NCBI GenBank assembly: GCA_019745575.1
Contig: JAIETA010000149.1
Span: 1 to 52,625 of the forward strand
Length of the DNA stretch: 52,625 bases
Direction of reading: 5' to 3'
DNA from: Reyranella sp.
Lineage (GTDB): Bacteria > Pseudomonadota > Alphaproteobacteria > Reyranellales > Reyranellaceae
In this document: positions 43,770 to 52,091 of the stretch, piece after piece
How positions within the stretch are numbered: position 1 is the first letter of the stretch
How the letters are laid out: each line of letters begins with the position of its first letter
Position numbers and translations under genes: made by a program
Notes under the pieces: model-generated
Told to the model about the DNA's origin: nothing
Databases searched by the model: none
What the model saw: the letters and a program-made list of their open reading frames with translations, nothing else

Positions 43770-44126
43770 TCAGGCCGCCGTCGATGCGCGCACGCCCCGC
43801 CGGTTGCCGGCGCGGGCGCCCTTGCGGACACGGCCGGCCGGCGCCGCGGGGCGGGCCGTCAGCTGGAGCTTCATCGTCCGCAGCACGCTCATGAACGTGG
43901 TGAGCTTCGGATCGCCCTTCAGGGTGAGCGACTTGTAGAGCGCCTCGCGGGTCACGCCGGCGCCGCGCGCCACGCCCGACATGCCGCGGGCCCGGACGAT
44001 GGTGCCGAGCGCGTTGGCGATGTAGGCGGCATCGCCCGTCGCCAGCGCGTCGGTGAGCAGCTCGGCCTGGTCCTCGGGCGAGCGGAGGTGTTCGGCGGGG
44101 TCGAACGGGACGGTCTTGAGGGCCAT
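43770..44126 (-). CDS. Addiction-module antitoxin, HigA/TIGR02684-like
   Basis: A 118-residue DNA-binding protein from ATG 44126; AGGAG lies 8 bases upstream, which is better than the ATG at 44156. TVPFDPAEHLRSPEDQAEL and IANALGTIVRARGMSGVARG lead to the helix-turn-helix VTREALYKSLTLKG, the pattern of the antidote partner of RelE/HigB-like killer proteins. A basic, Arg/Ala-rich tail of ~25 residues (after MKLQLTARP) is unusual and may bind DNA. The toxin gene lies upstream by 26 bases, toxin-first order as in higBA. Confidence 0.87.
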   Translation of the reverse strand: MALKTVPFDPAEHLRSPEDQAELLTDALATGDAAYIANALGTIVRARGMSGVARGAGVTREALYKSLTLKGDPKLTTFMSVLRTMKLQLTARPAAPAGRVRKGARAGNRRGVRASTAA

Positions 44127-44152
44127 GGGGGTTGCTCCTGCGCTGGTCGTTG

Positions 44153-44446
44153 TCATCGGAGATCGGCGGCCATCTGCTGCGCTCGCCTGATGTCCGCCTT
44201 CTGCGTGCCCTTGTCGCCGCCGCACAGCAGGATGACGAGGGCGAGGCCCTGCCGCGCGAAGTAGACGCGATGGCCGGGGCCCCAGTCGACGCGAAGCTCC
44301 GAGACGCCCCCGCCGACCGGCTTCACGTCCCCCAGCAGGCCGGACTGAACCCGGACGATGCGCTGGGCGATCTTCGCGGCGGCCCGCTCGTCCCGGAGCG
44401 ACTTCAGCCACCTGGCGAATTCCTCGGTCTGGCGCACCGTGATCAT
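44153..44446 (-). CDS. RelE/HigB-superfamily toxin (addiction-module killer protein)
   Basis: A 97-residue toxin from ATG 44446 (MITVRQTEEFARWLKSLRD); a further upstream ATG is in frame but not needed. AKIAQRIVRVQSGLLGDVKP, SELRVDWGPGHRVYFARQG and LVILLCGGDKGTQKADIRRA match the TIGR02683 type, predicted to cleave mRNA on ribosomes. It sits upstream of its antitoxin, preceded by an inverted and a direct repeat that look like an autoregulatory operator (44463-44502). Confidence 0.9.
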   Translation of the reverse strand: MITVRQTEEFARWLKSLRDERAAAKIAQRIVRVQSGLLGDVKPVGGGVSELRVDWGPGHRVYFARQGLALVILLCGGDKGTQKADIRRAQQMAADLR

Positions 44447-44462
44447 GAGGCTATGATAACCG

Positions 44463-44502
44463 TAGTTCACAGGCGGCGATCTGTCAACTACAGTTCACAG
44501 GC
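44463..44502 (-). promoter_or_regulatory. Probable operator of the toxin-antitoxin pair
   Basis: TAGTTCACAG (44463-44472) and CTGTCAACTA (44481-44490) form an inverted repeat with one mismatch. AGTTCACAGGC is also repeated directly at 44464-44474 and 44492-44502, 28 bases apart. It lies just upstream of the toxin start, where antitoxin helix-turn-helix proteins usually bind to repress the operon. Confidence 0.55.
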
Positions 44503-44739
44503 CTGTTGGGGGGATCAGACGTGGCCGCGCGATATATACTGAAATTAGCGAGTTTATGTTGGGCGCTTCTCCCCCCGCCTCCTTCTCTGCTCCCGCTTCG
44601 CGGGCGAAGGGGGAAGGCCGCGGGCACGTCTGCCGGCCGGGTCGGGAGGTTCCTTCGGAGGCATTTCCGGTCCGGCGCGGCCCGCGCCGCCGTATTCCCG
44701 CCCGGCGCGATCTGGTACCCTGCGGCCGTCCGGAAGGGG

Positions 44740-45009
44740 ATGGATATCGTGCTCCACGATCGCATCGTTCTCGATCCCGCGATCCTCGCGGGCAAGCCCG
44801 TGATCCGCGGCACGCGGCTCTCGGTCGAGTTCGTCATCGGCCTGCTGGCCGACGGCTGGAGCGAGTCCGACATCGCGGCCAACTACCCCGGCATCGGCCA
44901 CGACGACGTGCTGGCCTGCCTCGCCTATGCCCGCGACCGGCTGCGGGACGAACGCATCTACCCAAGCGCCGCCGAAGTGGAAGCGATGTACGCTGAGGAT
45001 GGCCAATAG
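44740..45009 (+). CDS. DUF433 domain protein (VapB/antitoxin-like), partner absent
   Basis: An 89-residue protein from ATG 44740, with GGAAGGGG upstream. RIVLDPAILAGKPVIRGTRL, SVEFVIGLLADGWSESDIAANYPG and ILACLAYARDRLRDE-like text are the full DUF433 signature, a helix-turn-helix-like antitoxin domain. Normally a DUF5615 (PIN-like) toxin follows; here the next gene is the methyltransferase. It may be an orphan antitoxin or a regulator of the downstream operon, since it is on the same strand. Confidence 0.88.
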   Translation: MDIVLHDRIVLDPAILAGKPVIRGTRLSVEFVIGLLADGWSESDIAANYPGIGHDDVLACLAYARDRLRDERIYPSAAEVEAMYAEDGQ

Positions 45010-45090: not shown

Positions 45091-45138
45091 ATGAGTCGCG
45101 CGCACCGGCGCAGGGTTGGGCGGGGAACCGACCGATGA
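45091..45138 (+). CDS. 15-codon arginine-rich leader ORF overlapping the methyltransferase start
   Basis: ATG 45091 is preceded by GGAG at 45081-45084 and opens a 15-residue frame, MSRAHRRRVGRGTDR, of which six residues are Arg. Its TGA (45136-45138) overlaps the ATG of the methyltransferase (ATGA). The methyltransferase has only a weak site of its own (GGGGA, 9 bases upstream), so leader translation could control it by coupling or stalling. Too short to prove as a gene; a chance ORF cannot be excluded. Confidence 0.4.
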   Translation: MSRAHRRRVGRGTDR

Positions 45139-47861
45139 ACGCCGTTGAAATCGAACAAGCCATCTCCGCCCTCGCCGAGCAGCCGTTCGATCGCGCCGAG
45201 TTTTCCTTCGCCTTCCTCGAAGCCTTCGGCAACAAGGAGACCACGATCAAGCGCCTGCGCAGCGGTGCCTCGAACAAATCGGACCTGGGCGGCGTTCTTC
45301 AGACCAGCAACATCCACATCGCCGTCGCCGCGCCTGGCGAAGTCACGAAGACGCTCGCCGCCCTGAAAGCCAGCCCGGCGACGAGCCGGGCCAAGGCGAA
45401 GTTCATCCTGGCGACCGATGGCGAGACGTTCGAGGCCGAGGACTTGACGAGTGGCGAGACCGTCGCCTGCGCCTATGCTGACCTCCCCGACCATTTCGGC
45501 TTCTTCCTTCCCCTCGCCGGCATCACGACCGTTTCGCAAATCCGCGAATCCTCCTTCGACATCCGGGCGACCAGCCGCCTGAACCGGCTCTATGTCGAGC
45601 TGCTGAAAGACAACCCGGAATGGGGAACCACCCAGCGTCGTCCCGACATGAACCACTTCATGGCGCGGCTGATCTTCTGCTTCTTCGCCGAAGAGACCGA
45701 TATCTTCAACGGCACCGGCCTGTTCACCGCAACCATCGAGCAGATGAGCGCGCGGGATGCATCAAACACCCATGAGGTGATTGCCGAGCTATTCCGCGCG
45801 ATGAACACCAAGATAGCCGACCGGGCCAATGCTGACATTGCTCGATGGGCAGACGTATTCCCCTACGTGAACGGCGGACTCTTTGGCGGCAGCCCCGACG
45901 CTCCGCGCTTCAGCCGGATCGCGCGCTCCTACCTTCTCCATATTGGCAGTCTCGACTGGAAAAAGATCAATCCGGATATTTTCGGCTCAATGATCCAGGC
46001 GGTCGCGGAAGATGAGGAACGGGGAGCGCTCGGCATGCACTACACTAGCGTGCCGAACATCCTGAAGGTGCTCAATCCGCTGTTCTTGGACGATTTGCGG
46101 GCGCGCTTGGAAGAGGCGGCCGACAATTCTCGCGCCTTGCTGAATCTACGCAGGCGCATGTCGAGAATTCGGGTCTTCGACCCGGCCTGCGGCTCCGGCA
46201 ACTTTCTGGTCATTGCCTACAAGGAAATGCGGGCGATCGAGGCTGAGATCAACCGGCGGCGGGGCGAGCCCGGCCGCCGTAGCGATATCCCGTTGACCAA
46301 CTTTCGCGGAATTGAGCTACGCGACTTCCCCGCTGAGATCGCGCGCCTGGCGCTCATCATCGCGGAGTATCAATGCGACGTGCTTCATCGCGGTCAGAAA
46401 GAAGCCCTGGCCGAGTTTTTGCCGTTGGACGCCCAAAACTGGATCACCTGCGGCAACGCCCTGCGGCTGGATTGGCTCAGCATCTGTCCGCCGACCGGAA
46501 CCGGCGTTAAGCATAGCGCTGGCGATCTTTTTGATACGCCCCTCAGCCAAGCGCAGATCGACTTCGAGAACGAGGGCGGTGAGACATACATCTGCGGGAA
46601 CCCGCCGTATCGAGGAAGCAAGTGGCAAGACGACGGGCAGAAGGCGGATCTCGCGCGTGCCTGGTTCGAACACCCGCAACTCGCCAAGACGACCGACTTC
46701 GTATCGGGTTGGATTGCCGAGTACCTTAAATATGCCCACTCGGTGCCGGATGCGATGGCGGCTTTCGTCGCTACTAACAGCATCTGCCAAGGCCAGCAGG
46801 CATCCGAAATTTGGCCCATAGTGACTCGACAAGGGAGAGAAATTCGCTTCGCTCACACTCCCTTTACGTGGAAGAACCTCGCGAGCCATAACGCCGGCGT
46901 TACTGTGGTCATTATTGGCCTAGGTCCCAGATCATCTCGGTCAAAGCGCTTGTTCGGTGACGATGATCTCGTGCGCGAGTGTGAAGTCATCGGACCGTAT
47001 CTCGTGCCCAATATGCCTGACACCATCACGAAGGCGAATAGACCGCTGGGCCCTCAATCCACTATGCTGTTCGGCAACATGCCTCGAGACGGAGGGCATT
47101 TGTTCCTTACAACGCAAGAGGCACGCGAGCTTCGCCGGAACTCCGCCACCCGCTCCTACGTGCGCCGATTCCTTGGGTCGGACGAACTGATTAACGGTAA
47201 GCTTCGATTTTGTCTCTGGATCAAAGACGGCGACGCCGAAGCGGCTAGGATGGATGCATTTATCGCTGAGCGGCTCGCGCTCGTCGCGGATAACAGGCGC
47301 CGATCTCCGGCCGAATCCACGCGTGCATTCGCGGATTTGCCTCACCGCTTTGTTCAGATTGCGGGCACGGCTGAGAAATCAGCAATCGTCGTGCCGAGGG
47401 TGTCTTCTGAAAACCGTGATTATCTGCCGGTTGACCTCGTGACCGGCGACTGCATCATCGGCGACCGAAATTTCGCTCTATACGATGCGCCCCTCTGGAA
47501 CATGGCGCTGATAGCCTCCCGTCTGCACTGGGTTTGGATAGGAACAGTTTGTGTCCGCATGCGCACTGACTTCTCTTACTCGAACACGTTAGGCTGGAAC
47601 ACTTTCCCGGTCCCACTTCTCACAGAAAAGAACCGGAGCGATCTCAACCGATCGTCGGAAAATATCCTGATCGCGCGTGAACGACATTTCCCTTGCACGA
47701 TTGCTGAGCTTTACGACGCGAATGCCATGCCGGATGACCTGCGCGAGGCGCATCGCCAAAACGACGAGGTAGTCGAAAGAATCTACTTCGGCCGCCGGAT
47801 GAAGAATGACACCGATAGGCTAGAAAGTCTGTTCGCGCTGTACCGTAAGGCAGCAGCATAA
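45135..47861 (+). CDS. MmeI-like class I N6-adenine DNA methyltransferase (no nuclease domain seen)
   Basis: A 908-residue protein. The N-terminal ~330 residues are a helical region starting MNAVEIEQAISALAEQPFDR, like that of MmeI-type enzymes, but without a recognisable PD-(D/E)XK nuclease motif. The catalytic region has motif I VFDPACGSGNFLVIA (Phe348 to Ala362) and motif IV CGNPPYRGSKW (NPPY at 489-492), which indicates adenine-N6 methylation. A target recognition region (roughly 600-800) and a C-terminal tail (FALYRKAAA) follow. From about residue 560 codon use turns AT-richer. Its stop overlaps the ATG of the PLD nuclease (TAATG). It would protect host DNA from the nucleases that follow. 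Confidence 0.9.
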   Translation: MNAVEIEQAISALAEQPFDRAEFSFAFLEAFGNKETTIKRLRSGASNKSDLGGVLQTSNIHIAVAAPGEVTKTLAALKASPATSRAKAKFILATDGETFEAEDLTSGETVACAYADLPDHFGFFLPLAGITTVSQIRESSFDIRATSRLNRLYVELLKDNPEWGTTQRRPDMNHFMARLIFCFFAEETDIFNGTGLFTATIEQMSARDASNTHEVIAELFRAMNTKIADRANADIARWADVFPYVNGGLFGGSPDAPRFSRIARSYLLHIGSLDWKKINPDIFGSMIQAVAEDEERGALGMHYTSVPNILKVLNPLFLDDLRARLEEAADNSRALLNLRRRMSRIRVFDPACGSGNFLVIAYKEMRAIEAEINRRRGEPGRRSDIPLTNFRGIELRDFPAEIARLALIIAEYQCDVLHRGQKEALAEFLPLDAQNWITCGNALRLDWLSICPPTGTGVKHSAGDLFDTPLSQAQIDFENEGGETYICGNPPYRGSKWQDDGQKADLARAWFEHPQLAKTTDFVSGWIAEYLKYAHSVPDAMAAFVATNSICQGQQASEIWPIVTRQGREIRFAHTPFTWKNLASHNAGVTVVIIGLGPRSSRSKRLFGDDDLVRECEVIGPYLVPNMPDTITKANRPLGPQSTMLFGNMPRDGGHLFLTTQEARELRRNSATRSYVRRFLGSDELINGKLRFCLWIKDGDAEAARMDAFIAERLALVADNRRRSPAESTRAFADLPHRFVQIAGTAEKSAIVVPRVSSENRDYLPVDLVTGDCIIGDRNFALYDAPLWNMALIASRLHWVWIGTVCVRMRTDFSYSNTLGWNTFPVPLLTEKNRSDLNRSSENILIARERHFPCTIAELYDANAMPDDLREAHRQNDEVVERIYFGRRMKNDTDRLESLFALYRKAAA

Positions 47862-48871
47862 TGAGTGGCTTCGCCCACAATCTTGTGTCGGGCACGACAA
47901 CGTTGTCTGAGATCGCGCGGGTGCGCGTGGCAATTTCGGCAGACCAGTTCTTCGGGTGTTTTGCCTACGCAACTCAGTCGGGCTTCAGAGTGTTCGAGTT
48001 GAGCGTCGGAAAGGATTTCTGGACAACTAAGTCGCGTTGGCTGTTTGGTATCGACTATGGCAGGACGGACCCGCGCGCATTGCGCGAGATTGCCGATCGC
48101 GCAAACACGGAAGTTCGAATTTTTGACGGGCGTTATGTCGTGGATCGAACTGGCTTTGTGCCGCGTCGCGACTTCCACCCGAAGGTCGCGATGATGGAGA
48201 ACACCGCTTGTAACAAGCAGGGGGTAGTACTCGGCTCCGGCAATTTCTCTTACAATGGTCTTCGGCGCAGTATTGAAGCCGGCTCGGCCACCATAGCGAC
48301 TACCAAAGCCGACTTTAATGAGCACATTAAACCTGTCCGCTCAGTGTTCGAGAAACTGTGGAAGTACGCCTGTCCGTTGGACGACATCGCGAAGAATTAT
48401 GAAAAGCGCCTAGCCGACCTGCTCAATTCAAGAGATTCGAAGAGATCGTTCAAGGCGAAGAGTCCTACTAGGGGCTTTTGGATCGAGGCAGGCTACGTCA
48501 CCAAGAACCGTGGGAAGGACAAGCCGGGAAATCAGATATTTGCTCCTAATGGCTTCCGAAGCTTTTTCGGCCTCAAGAAGGGCAAGAGCAGCTCGACCCA
48601 GATCGGTGAAATCACCTTCGAAACTGAGACGGGTCCAAGGGTCACGCAGAATTATCGAGAGAACGACAATGGCATGGAGAAGTTGACCCTGCCAAAGCCC
48701 GAGGATCATGGATTCGGCGTGTATGATGGCAAGGTTTTGATCTTCAAGCCTAGAGGCAAACGGTTTTTGTTGACCGCAGTTGAGCGTGATGATTTTGAGC
48801 TGGTCTATGGGCATCAGCTGGCGAACGTTAGAAAGATGACCGGGGGAAGACGTTTCGGGGAGCTGACTTAA
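47861..48871 (+). CDS. PLD-fold restriction nuclease, BfiI/NgoFVII-like, with probable C-terminal DNA-binding domain
   Basis: A 336-residue protein. The N-terminal half has one phospholipase-D type active site: FHPKVAMM (His106, Lys108), GSGNFSYNGL (Asn128) and Glu139 in RRSIEAG, spaced like the single-motif site of the metal-independent nuclease BfiI. The C-terminal half, beginning near SPTRGFWIEAGYVTKNRGKD and containing GNQIFAPNGFRSFFG, resembles the DNA-recognition domain of NgoFVII/BfiI-like enzymes (B3-like fold), a call from memory. Codon use is AT-richer than in the helicase gene. It starts 1 base inside the methyltransferase stop and ends 3 bases before the helicase, so it belongs to this operon. 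Confidence 0.82.
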   Translation: MSGFAHNLVSGTTTLSEIARVRVAISADQFFGCFAYATQSGFRVFELSVGKDFWTTKSRWLFGIDYGRTDPRALREIADRANTEVRIFDGRYVVDRTGFVPRRDFHPKVAMMENTACNKQGVVLGSGNFSYNGLRRSIEAGSATIATTKADFNEHIKPVRSVFEKLWKYACPLDDIAKNYEKRLADLLNSRDSKRSFKAKSPTRGFWIEAGYVTKNRGKDKPGNQIFAPNGFRSFFGLKKGKSSSTQIGEITFETETGPRVTQNYRENDNGMEKLTLPKPEDHGFGVYDGKVLIFKPRGKRFLLTAVERDDFELVYGHQLANVRKMTGGRRFGELT

Positions 48872-48874
48872 GCT

Positions 48875-50905
48875 ATGGTCTCTGTCCCATCCGTCTCTGT
48901 CACCTACGCGCGCAACGGTAGCTCCACTAAAACGAACGCGCTTGGCATGCGGCCGATGCAGGAACGCACCTACGAAAGGCGGGGCGAGCAGTATCTTCTC
49001 ATCAAGTCGCCGCCGGCGTCGGGCAAGAGCCGCGCGCTCATGTTCATCGCGCTCGACAAGCTCCACAATCAGGGACTCAAGCAGGCGATCATCGTCGTGC
49101 CGGAAAAGGCGATCGGGGCGAGCTTCAACGACGAGCCTCTGACGGCATCCGGCTTCTGGGCGGATTGGGGCGTCGTTCCGAAATGGAACCTGTGCAACGC
49201 CCCGGGTACCGACGGCGGCAAGGTCAACGCGGTCAAAGCCTTCCTGGAAAGCACGGACAAGGTGCTGGTCTGCACCCATGCTACCTTCCGCTTCGCCGTC
49301 GACAAGTTCGGGGTCGAGGCGTTCGACGACCGGCTGATCGCCGTGGACGAGTTTCATCACGTCTCGGTCAGCCCGGACAACAAGCTCGGCCTGCACCTGG
49401 GGGAGTTCATCGCCCGCGATCGGGTCCACATCGTGGCGATGACCGGCTCCTACTTCCGAGGTGACGCGGAGGCCGTGCTGTCTCCGGCAGACGAGGCCAG
49501 GTTCGATACCGTCACCTATACCTATTACGAACAGCTCAACGGCTACGAGCATCTGAAGCAGCTCGACATCGGCTATTTCTTTTATTCCGGGTCTTATGCC
49601 GACGACATCCAGAAAGTGATCAACCCGGCCGAGAGAACGATCATCCACATTCCGAATGTCAATGCGCGCGAAAGTACGAAAGACAAGATTCGGGAAGTCG
49701 AGCACATCCTCGAGGCGCTGGGGGAGTGGCAGGGAACCGACTCCGCGACCGGCTTCCAGCTCGTCAAGACGGCTGAGGGCCGTATGCTCAGAGTCGCCGA
49801 CCTGGTCGACGACGATCCGTTCAAACGCGAGCGTGTGTCCGCCGCGCTGAAGGATCCGGCGCAAAAGAACAACCGCGACCATGTGAACATCATCATCGCT
49901 CTCGGCATGGCGAAGGAAGGCTTCGACTGGATCTGGTGCGAGCACGCGCTGACGATCGGCTACCGGTCGAGCCTCACCGAGATCGTACAGATCATCGGGC
50001 GCGCCACGCGCGACGCGCCGGGCAAGGTGCGGGCGCGCTTCACCAACCTGATCGCCGAGCCCGATGCCTCCCAGGAGGCCGTCACCGAGGCCGTCAACGA
50101 CACGCTGAAGGCCATCGCGGCCAGCCTGCTGATGGAGCAGGTGCTGGCGCCCCGTTTCGAGTTCAAGCCGAAGAACCCGGGAAATGGGCCGATTGCTGGC
50201 TTCGACTATGGCGAAGGCGGCTATGACCCGCTGAAGTGCAATGTGGGCTTCAACGGCGAAAGCGGGCAGTTCCAGATCGAGATCAAGGGACTCGTCGCGC
50301 CGAAGAGCACGGAAGCGCAGCGCATCTGCCAGCAGGACCTCAACGAAGTCATCGCCGCCTTCGTCCAGGACAAGACCACGATCGAGCGCGGGCTTTTCGA
50401 TCCCGAGCTGGTGCCCGAGGAACTGACCCAGATCCGCATGGGCAAGATCATCAAGGACAAGTATCCCGAGCTGGATGAGGAGGATCAGGAGGCGGTGCGG
50501 CAGCATGCGATCGCCGCCATCAATTTCGTCCAGAAGGCCAAGGAAGTCGCTACGGGAGAGAACACGCCGAACACGGCCTTCGTCGACGGCATTCGCAAGT
50601 TCGCCATGGACGTGCGCGAACTGGACATCGACCTGATCGATCGCATCAACCCCTTCAGCGAAGCCTATGCGATCCTCTCCAAGTCCATGAGCGAAGAGAG
50701 TCTCAGGCAGGTGAAGGAGGCGATCGCCGGCAAGCGGATAGGCTTGACGGTCGAGGAGGCCCGCGACCTTGCCCGGCGAGCCCTGAGGTTCAAGCAGGAG
50801 CGGGGCCGGTTGCCGTCGATCACGTCGCCCGATGCCTGGGAACGGCGGATGGCCGAGGGCGTGGCGTTCCTCGTGCGCATGAAGGCCGAGGCGGAACGTG
50901 GCTAG
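48875..50905 (+). CDS. SF2 DEAD/DEAH-type helicase of a restriction-like operon
   Basis: A 676-residue helicase. Walker A is IKSPPASGKSRAL (Lys51), motif II the unusual VDEFHH (Asp158-His161), motif III AMTGS (190-192 for TGS), and motif VI QIIGRATRD (Gln372 to Arg379). FDWIWCEHALTIGYRSSLTE between them resembles helicases of type III restriction and phage-defence systems. There is no fused nuclease. The last ~50 residues contain FKQERGRLP, similar in style to a helicase-associated module also seen in the next protein. The gene begins 3 bases after the PLD gene and overlaps the GIY-YIG gene by 8 bases. Confidence 0.92.
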   Translation: MVSVPSVSVTYARNGSSTKTNALGMRPMQERTYERRGEQYLLIKSPPASGKSRALMFIALDKLHNQGLKQAIIVVPEKAIGASFNDEPLTASGFWADWGVVPKWNLCNAPGTDGGKVNAVKAFLESTDKVLVCTHATFRFAVDKFGVEAFDDRLIAVDEFHHVSVSPDNKLGLHLGEFIARDRVHIVAMTGSYFRGDAEAVLSPADEARFDTVTYTYYEQLNGYEHLKQLDIGYFFYSGSYADDIQKVINPAERTIIHIPNVNARESTKDKIREVEHILEALGEWQGTDSATGFQLVKTAEGRMLRVADLVDDDPFKRERVSAALKDPAQKNNRDHVNIIIALGMAKEGFDWIWCEHALTIGYRSSLTEIVQIIGRATRDAPGKVRARFTNLIAEPDASQEAVTEAVNDTLKAIAASLLMEQVLAPRFEFKPKNPGNGPIAGFDYGEGGYDPLKCNVGFNGESGQFQIEIKGLVAPKSTEAQRICQQDLNEVIAAFVQDKTTIERGLFDPELVPEELTQIRMGKIIKDKYPELDEEDQEAVRQHAIAAINFVQKAKEVATGENTPNTAFVDGIRKFAMDVRELDIDLIDRINPFSEAYAILSKSMSEESLRQVKEAIAGKRIGLTVEEARDLARRALRFKQERGRLPSITSPDAWERRMAEGVAFLVRMKAEAERG

Positions 50906-52091
50906 GTTCACCGACGAGGACGACGCCCTTCTCGGCGAACTCGGCGTCGAGGCCGAGACGAAGAAGAGTGCCCGCCACACGCCGCGCGAGGAGCGGATCA
51001 TCGCCGGCTTCGAGGAAGTCCAGCGCTTCGTCGACCAGAACGGCAGGGCGCCCCAACATGGCGAAGGGCGCGACATCTTCGAGCGGCTCTACGCGGTGCG
51101 GCTCGACCGGCTGCGCGAGCAGGCCGACTGCCGCGCGCTTCTCGAGCCTCTCGATCATCAAGGGCTCCTCAAGGAGGGGAAACGCGCCCGACCCGGCTTT
51201 TCGGAGGGGATCGACGATGACGCCCTGTTGGAGCAGCTCGGCGTCAACGCATCTGCCCCTTCCGAAATCACGCAGCTGCGCCATGTGCGATCGTCTGTCG
51301 AGAGGCGGGAAGCGGAGGAGATCGCCAATCGCCAGAAGTGCGAGGATTTCGACCGCTTCAAGCCTCTTTTCCAGCAGGTGCAGTTGGAGCTGGAGAGCGG
51401 CGTGCGGCAGACGCGCCCCTTCGAACTCAAGGCCGAGATCGAGCCGGCAAGCTGGTTCATCGTCGGTGGCCAGAAGGCCTATGTCGCGACGGTGGGCGAG
51501 ATTTTCACCAATCCGCAGGGCCGCACCGACGCGCGGCTACGGGTCGTCTTCGACAATGGCACTGAAAGCAACATGCTCCTGCGCTCGCTGCAGCGTGCGC
51601 TCAACAAGGACGAGGCGGGGCGGCGGATCACCGCTCCGGTCGCGGGGCCTCTCTTCGCCGGCGAGTCCGGTGAGGGCGACCAGGCCAGCGGCACGATCTA
51701 TGTGCTGCGCAGCAAGTCCGACCACCCGACCGTGGCCGCACACCGCGAACTCGTCCACAAGATCGGCGTCACCAGTTCGAGCGTCGAGCGCCGCGTCGCC
51801 GGCGCGCGCCTTCAGCCGACCTTCCTGATGGCCGATGTGGAGGTCATCGCGACCTATAAGCTGTTCAATCTGGGTCGGGCCAAGCTGGAAAGCCTGATCC
51901 ACCGCATCTTCGCACCGGCGAGGCTGGACATCGAGATCATGGACCGCTTTGGGCGGCCTATCGTTCCTGAGGAGTGGTTCCTGGTTCCCCTCCAGGCGAT
52001 CGACGATGCCGTCGAGAAGATCAAGGACGGGACGATCGGCGAGTATGTGTACGATCCCAAACAGGCGGCGCTTGTGCGGGATGTGCGCTAG
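50898..52091 (+). CDS. GIY-YIG nuclease family protein with N-terminal repeats
   Basis: A 397-residue protein from GTG 50898, overlapping the helicase stop. The C-terminal nuclease domain (~265-380) has TIYVLRS in the GIY position (Ile267, Tyr268), HKIGVTSSSVERRV with the KIG motif (288-290) and Arg298 or Arg299, and the catalytic Glu331 in AKLESLIHRIF; it resembles the T5orf172/MUG113 subgroup. The N-terminal ~160 residues hold two similar blocks, EDDALLGELGVE (7-18) and DDDALLEQLGVN (106-117), each before a helical segment. It probably cuts DNA unwound or translocated by the helicase. The final gene of the operon. Confidence 0.88.
   Translation: MARFTDEDDALLGELGVEAETKKSARHTPREERIIAGFEEVQRFVDQNGRAPQHGEGRDIFERLYAVRLDRLREQADCRALLEPLDHQGLLKEGKRARPGFSEGIDDDALLEQLGVNASAPSEITQLRHVRSSVERREAEEIANRQKCEDFDRFKPLFQQVQLELESGVRQTRPFELKAEIEPASWFIVGGQKAYVATVGEIFTNPQGRTDARLRVVFDNGTESNMLLRSLQRALNKDEAGRRITAPVAGPLFAGESGEGDQASGTIYVLRSKSDHPTVAAHRELVHKIGVTSSSVERRVAGARLQPTFLMADVEVIATYKLFNLGRAKLESLIHRIFAPARLDIEIMDRFGRPIVPEEWFLVPLQAIDDAVEKIKDGTIGEYVYDPKQAALVRDVR

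Follow-up and report, generated by a model that had tools for sequence, protein, structure and literature searches.

A YeeABC operon of Reyranella sp. carries a predicted BfiI-type nuclease gene co-inherited with the specificity half of its methyltransferase

In Bacillus subtilis, DnmA, an MmeI homologue without the nuclease motif, is followed by the helicase YeeB and the T5orf172 protein YeeC, and this arrangement is reported to be common among DnmA homologues; the parts of these accounts available to us mention no PLD protein (PMC9973331, PMC7261158). Here we describe an operon of Reyranella sp. that combines such a core with a gene for a PLD–B3 protein, a predicted BfiI-type nuclease. The operon occupies positions 45135–52091 of contig JAIETA010000149.1 (assembly GCA_019745575.1; 52,625 nucleotides, hereafter the window), which makes up a complete contig, one of 364 in the assembly, and ends 534 bases past the operon, so that neighbours beyond 52625 are not visible. 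By description, the window holds the same three protein types in the same order as DnmA-YeeB-YeeC, but its helicase gene is not the first after the methyltransferase gene, the PLD–B3 gene intervening.

Several other described systems share parts of this make-up. Enzymes of the BfiI/BmrI/NgoFVII type have the same single HxK..GSxN motif and C-terminal B3-like domain as the PLD protein of the window, whose partner, however, is one MmeI-type methyltransferase encoded within a YeeABC operon. According to the accessible portion of PMC4081073, BfiI has one catalytic site and binds two recognition sequences simultaneously. In the ATP-dependent enzymes CglI and NgoAVII, a PLD–B3 gene likewise adjoins a superfamily 2 (SF2) helicase gene; for CglI, the available part of PMC5737866 describes a PLD–B3 subunit coupled to the helicase. 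The methyltransferase has the same five domains as the MmeI family (type IIL/IIG), but its chain lacks the N-terminal D-x9-E-x-K nuclease. In one class 1 DISARM locus a PLD relative follows DrmMI, whereas the four window proteins gave no DrmA, DrmB or DUF1998 match; unlike in BREX, neither PglZ nor BrxC is among them (both statements cover these four proteins and not the rest of the contig). The operon and its parts are located as follows.

45135..47861, plus strand: YeeA/DnmA-type MmeI-like DNA methyltransferase, 908 amino acids (open reading frame, domains, motifs)
46635..48871, plus strand: putative exchange cassette, methyltransferase C-terminal half (from about codon 500) and PLD gene (borders approximate, from 150-base windows)
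47022..47618, plus strand: MmeI_TRD, target recognition domain (TRD) of the methyltransferase (domain match)
47861..48871, plus strand: predicted BfiI-type nuclease gene, 336 amino acids, with N-terminal single PLD motif and C-terminal B3-like domain (open reading frame, alignment, model)
48176..48244, plus strand: PLD motif H106-x-K108 ... G125-S126-x-N128 (invariant in 10 aligned sequences)
48458..48868, plus strand: predicted B3-like DNA recognition domain, residues 200–336 (structure model, fold match)
48875..50905, plus strand: YeeB-type SF2 helicase/ATPase, 676 amino acids (open reading frame, motifs)
50898..52091, plus strand: YeeC-type T5orf172/GIY-YIG protein, 397 amino acids, GTG start (open reading frame, domains, conserved residues)

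A first-pass annotation, made from the sequence alone, had described four overlapping or nearly overlapping genes forming a composite restriction-like operon with an MmeI-like methyltransferase and a site-recognising PLD nuclease. The gene layout was confirmed: the four open reading frames (ORFs) are intact and closely packed, and direct reading of the junctions showed a TAATG shared by the methyltransferase and PLD genes, a 3-bp gap between the PLD and helicase genes, and an 8-bp overlap of the helicase and GIY-YIG genes. This overlap was found again in 18 of 21 tabulated annotated plasmid loci, the other three junctions being 11 bp, 14 bp and a 4-bp gap. Gene content and domains also support the composite restriction-like operon. 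The methyltransferase matched all five MmeI Pfam domains, TRD included, and the PADLOC IIG model over its full length (E = 8e-265); PglX models were matched weakly. Its motif I (DPACGSG) starts at residue 349 and its NPPY at residue 489. D-x9-E-x-K was absent, both here and in 54 of 54 rows of the YeeA set, 12 of which contained a loose [ED]-x-K pattern; the complete motif was present in nine of ten control methyltransferases fetched additionally, the tenth being of YeeA type. The helicase gave DEAD, ResIII and Helicase_C matches, all under Pfam cut-offs, and its GKS, DEFHH, TGS and QIIGR motifs were at least 95% conserved (64 rows). The GIY-YIG protein matched T5orf172 and MUG113 above cut-off, with at least 95% conservation (62 rows) of G265, Y268, K288, G290, R299, E331 and H335, which we take to be the GIY-YIG core.

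The PLDc_2 Pfam model matched the PLD protein under the curated cut-off (E = 0.0054); the NgoFVII Pfam model gave no match to it and matched its relatives under the cut-off. HxK and GSxN were invariant in the aligned sequences, and the top fold match of the modelled C-terminal half was the B3 domain of BfiI, consistent with the annotated site recognition. The protein is predicted to be a BfiI-type nuclease that probably recognises a site. No match to it was found in phage records, and none was confirmed in the single viral-contig scan made for it. An origin as a split-off N-terminus of YeeB was rejected, helicases measuring 644–732 amino acids with or without PLD.

Helicase searches matched 16 of 289 genomes in the class (one of them, G216, weakly) and 24 of 398 in the phylum, each including the window's own genome. 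We read 33 whole-genome relatives, comprising 15 other strong class loci and 18 phylum loci; G216 and the fragments G437 and G463 were left out. Methyltransferase and GIY-YIG genes flanked the helicase gene, order kept, at all 33, some of the methyltransferases being split, broken or cut by contig ends; at L068 and L069, about 7 kb of other genes is interposed in the core. In the B. subtilis control genome, an MmeI-TRD protein was matched. The window's PLD gene was absent from all 33 helicase-found relatives, and a class search with the PLD protein matched, among 289 genomes, that of the window alone. Because the PLD gene is missing from all these relatives while the core is constant, the window operon is the described DnmA-YeeB-YeeC core plus one facultative gene, and the fixed four-gene system of the first-pass annotation was not supported. 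Helicase and GIY-YIG genes occur independently of the PLD gene, which is largely what the annotation had named as evidence against such a system, though at all 33 they accompany the methyltransferase gene. At one Polaromonas E10S plasmid locus (L097, 3795–8009), the stretch read contains a PDDEXK gene followed by the helicase and GIY-YIG genes and no methyltransferase, with replication genes upstream. The annotation had also left room for an earlier description under another name, which applies to the three-gene core, described as DnmA-YeeB-YeeC in the portions of PMC9973331 and PMC7261158 at hand, but not to the PLD gene, which is not part of it. A literature search confined to open-licence papers returned no account of a PLD–B3 nuclease inside YeeABC or of this four-gene arrangement.

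The four-gene form recurs at a few loci. Scanning one genome per species (84,980 species) with short patterns, which detect close relatives only, gave four PLD loci, all in the order methyltransferase–PLD–helicase–GIY-YIG: Methylocystis silviterrae, an Alphaproteobacteria metagenome-assembled genome, Rhodobacterales HKCCE4037 and Erythrobacter NAP1. A plasmid search found the same operon on pOB3b2 of Methylosinus trichosporium OB3b (two records), together with a DISARM-linked PLD relative and a PLD remnant adjoining an IS element. Helicase matches occurred in 264 plasmid records, 153 covering at least 80% of its length, and plasmids of Alphaproteobacteria, Lactobacillus and Vibrio carried the core in colinear form.

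To compare what lies between methyltransferase and helicase, we examined 68 loci and retained 45 with a helicase more than 60% identical to that of the window and a full methyltransferase; the copies L137 and L138 were counted as two. Left out were loci with no callable slot (L094, whose record begins immediately before the helicase, L097, L129, L130, L132, L133), with no full methyltransferase match (L020, L024, L028, L068, L076, L078, L079, L086, L088, L134) or with a helicase below 60% identity (L032, L033, L073, L074, L075, L077, L080). The slot contained no ORF of at least 70 amino acids at 17 loci (among them L099, with a 145-base gap), the PLD gene at six and other genes at 22, two of which are the copies. 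Identified slot genes included a zeta toxin, RhuM, PDDEXK_4, YafQ, a RelE/ParE set, a Schlafen/AlbA_2 protein and a YhcG-type PDDEXK, the last called by similarity to L028 and annotation; L020, outside the 45, has BrnT. At L091, L093 and L141, the slot holds a 294-aa protein and a Schlafen/AlbA_2-HATPase_c_4 protein (annotated as ATP-binding), and here the TRDs differ while the helicases are nearly identical.

Presence of the PLD gene followed the methyltransferase's specificity half. TRD identity to the window was 71–90% in the five other PLD-positive loci and 30–57% in PLD-negative rows with a readable TRD, whereas the N-terminal domains of near relatives resembled that of the window with or without PLD. 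Among PLD-positive loci, TRD identity was 68–90% in 15 of 15 pairs (mean 76.5), compared with a mean of 42.9 and a maximum of 60.8 in 5,000 random sixes. For the catalytic domain, the PLD-positive mean was 81.0 and the random-six maximum 78.8; the corresponding means for the N-terminal domain (77.0) and the helicase (80.5) were reached by 1.4% and 4.6% of random sixes, respectively. On quick trees (L138 dropped and L146 added; 45 rows each, 43 for GIY-YIG; PLD label on the six slot loci), the label changed once on the TRD tree, once on the catalytic-domain tree, five times on the N-terminal-domain tree and six times on both the helicase and GIY-YIG trees. Shuffling the label 300 times on the TRD tree gave a mean of 5.74 changes and a minimum of 4, and shuffles averaged about 5.7 across trees; on the helicase and GIY-YIG trees the label was at random level. 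Helicase data rejected a single PLD-positive clade (p-AU 2e-64, LG+G4). Since one change sufficed on both the TRD and catalytic trees, PLD tracks the methyltransferase's C-terminal half as a whole, within which the TRD sets specificity. The PLD gene is thus co-inherited with this half and not with YeeB/YeeC.

The divergence of the PLD protein agrees with this pattern. B3 divergence correlated with TRD divergence (r = 0.82 for the six loci, 0.96 for seven) and not with helicase divergence (r = 0.08 and −0.25), the seven-locus correlation depending largely on L146. At L146, the PLD gene is placed after the GIY-YIG gene at the 3′ end of the operon, so the slot position itself is not required; identities to the window there were 80% for the helicase, 83% for the N-terminal domain, 52% for the TRD and 47% for B3.

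DNA comparisons located where exchange may have occurred. Between M. silviterrae (L035, PLD-positive) and L022 (PLD-negative), helicase and GIY-YIG genes were 89–100% identical, whereas the methyltransferase gene was 69–90% identical over its first 1,500 bases and 37–65% over the remainder, and PLD is absent from L022. The same breakpoint, just past NPPY, appeared in five more PLD-positive versus PLD-negative pairs: OB3b/Agrobacterium rubi, the window with each of L019, L085 and L086, and L037/L023. The window and M. silviterrae, which are both PLD-positive, share 78–94% identity in the cassette, more than in most flank windows. These comparisons suggest that a single unit is exchanged, which begins near codon 500 of the methyltransferase and takes in the PLD gene. 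Separately, on the Roseomonas mucosa plasmid (L086, 3705–6457), methyltransferase residues 1–504 are 82% like the window and are followed by a different TRD half; PLD is absent and the frame is broken.

PLD relatives also adjoin methyltransferases where YeeBC is absent. At 13 of 13 intact PLD-family loci inspected, a methyltransferase gene lay within the operon or adjoined it, and the enzyme often had its own nuclease already; proximity to a methyltransferase is thus the more general rule. On Methylobacterium/Methylorubrum plasmids (L148, L149, L162), an MmeI-like enzyme keeping the nuclease motif forms a two-gene unit with a PLD-family protein; the idea that PLD merely substitutes for a lost MmeI nuclease is weakened by these loci, which have both, and PLD looks like an added second cutter, not a replacement. 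L147 (2942–9456) encodes a 724-aa methylase, a 1084-aa IIG-like protein and a PLD relative, and adjoins the candidate defence gene PDC-S06. In a DISARM locus on a Methylocystis plasmid (L082), a PLD relative of 28–37% identity directly follows the DrmMI gene; one TRD–PLD pair common to DISARM and YeeABC was rejected, the window and DrmMI being only about 23% identical over that region. On a Paracoccus plasmid (L083, 8001–8264), a C-terminal PLD–B3 remnant, 95% identical to L146, lies beside sul2 and an IS1380 element, and partial PLD matches were seen in Roseomonas (H120, H121).

Collectively, we favour, with moderate confidence, a YeeABC restriction-modification operon to which a specificity-matched BfiI-type nuclease has been added. 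The YeeA methyltransferase would mark the host genome at one non-palindromic site, and the ATP motor YeeB with the GIY-YIG nuclease YeeC would attack unmarked DNA, as proposed for the three-gene family. Joint inheritance with the target-choosing half suggests a DNA word common to cutter and methylator; the B3 domain of the PLD protein would recognise the word read by the methyltransferase TRD, and the PLD domain would cut as a dimer with no metal needed, providing a second arm of restriction alongside YeeBC. We infer the shared recognition word, the cutting, the protection by methylation and an action independent of YeeB/YeeC. Because cutter and marker must agree, we propose that the methyltransferase specificity half and PLD are exchanged as one cassette, with YeeB and YeeC as a shared chassis.

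Several observations weigh against this reading. The PLD-positive sample is limited to six slot loci and L146, found by PLD similarity, whereas helicase or TRD similarity led to most of the PLD-negative loci, a possible bias. The PLD-positive loci form one TRD lineage with modest branch support (78, SH-aLRT), so a single acquisition that stayed linked could produce part of the pattern, and the catalytic domain tracks PLD no less closely than the TRD. Across the six loci, the N-terminal domain also correlates with B3 (r = 0.63) and with the PLD part (0.74), the seven-locus value being 0.14. L140 has a TRD of 62–64% identity yet YhcG in its slot in place of PLD; the viral contig L129, at 68%, has a 267-aa gene and one read as PIN-like instead. 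The cassette of M. silviterrae (L035) and OB3b (L081), both PLD-positive, is 59–82% identical, not above the flanks. Elsewhere, L162 and L148 have methyltransferase domains 97–100% identical and PLD proteins 78% identical, a 66% PLD relative at L163 is convergent to a different methylase, and the Methylobacterium-type enzyme retains its nuclease motif, so PLD is no replacement there. The PLD N-terminal domain was modelled poorly (pLDDT below 50 over residues 1–202) and is described here by its motifs. Finally, MmeI-family protection is by hemi-methylation, according to the available part of PMC7261158, and a simple one-site cutter would therefore attack newly replicated unmarked sites. A two-site requirement, BfiI-like or CglI-like, could spare the host.

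The last difficulty would be eased if the PLD–B3 protein were the nuclease and recognition subunit of one machine with YeeB as its motor, like R.CglI with H.CglI, cleavage needing ATP and communication between sites. The make-up described for CglI, PLD–B3 plus SF2 helicase, speaks for such a machine, as do the adjacency of the two genes here and the one-strand mark itself, the DnmA site being non-palindromic in the part of PMC7261158 accessible to us. However, YeeB and YeeC do not group by PLD, and PLD relatives occur at loci without YeeB, which favours independent action of PLD; we regard the integrated machine as unlikely. A broader version, in which YeeBC is a general ATP-driven chassis whose specificity changes as cassettes are swapped at one constant breakpoint around codon 500, and one lineage's cassette carries a matching BfiI-type nuclease that uses the YeeB motor so that one mark would license two mechanistically different nucleases, is similarly unlikely.

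Somewhat less probable again is that PLD is ordinary cargo of an insertion-tolerant slot that gathers toxins and nucleases, and that its only ties to the TRD are position and common descent. Other genes fill the slot at 22 of the 45 close loci, and restriction loci are known to have accessory genes coupled to them or embedded in them (PMC12707154, as far as its available text goes). Yet these genes, equally near the TRD, do not track it. TRD identity within pairs of loci sharing a slot gene was 35% for PDDEXK_4, 53% for RhuM and 47% for YhcG, and neither these (two rows each) nor a 137-aa slot gene clustered by TRD. For the slot pair of 294 and 508 aa, TRDs were 46–49% identical although the helicases were 98–99% identical, and its label changed three times on the TRD tree and once on the helicase tree. 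Moreover, the L146 PLD gene lies at the operon's far end, yet diverges in step with the TRD. The operon might also be a relic. For B. subtilis dnmA-yeeB-yeeC it was concluded that the methyltransferase now regulates genes and the others do not restrict; in the accessible parts of PMC9973331 and PMC7261158, three phages were unaffected by single deletions, and transformation was unaffected by dnmA loss. For the window operon a relic is very improbable, given four intact genes with conserved motif residues, the colinear plasmid cores, and V. crassostreae dnmA and yeeB deletions that, by a citation in the available part of PMC9973331, are said to make the host more sensitive to certain phage subclades but not to others.

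Upstream of the operon, the minus strand encodes a HigB/HigA-like toxin–antitoxin pair (43773–44470), with matches to Gp49-like (barely above cut-off) and addiction-module antidote families. A DUF433 protein is encoded immediately 5′ of the methyltransferase gene (44506–45009, plus strand), a position taken by a VapC-type toxin or HigA antitoxin in several plasmid relatives.

If the specificity-matched nuclease is real, it would be paired with a methyltransferase whose site can be read by modified-base sequencing, so that the nuclease's word would be both predictable and directly testable. The locus would provide a natural example in which methyltransferase specificity and a distinct nuclease are exchanged together, and would offer a test of how a one-strand methyl mark can guard against a PLD cutter. 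The variable YeeABC slot would then be worth searching for accessory defence genes.

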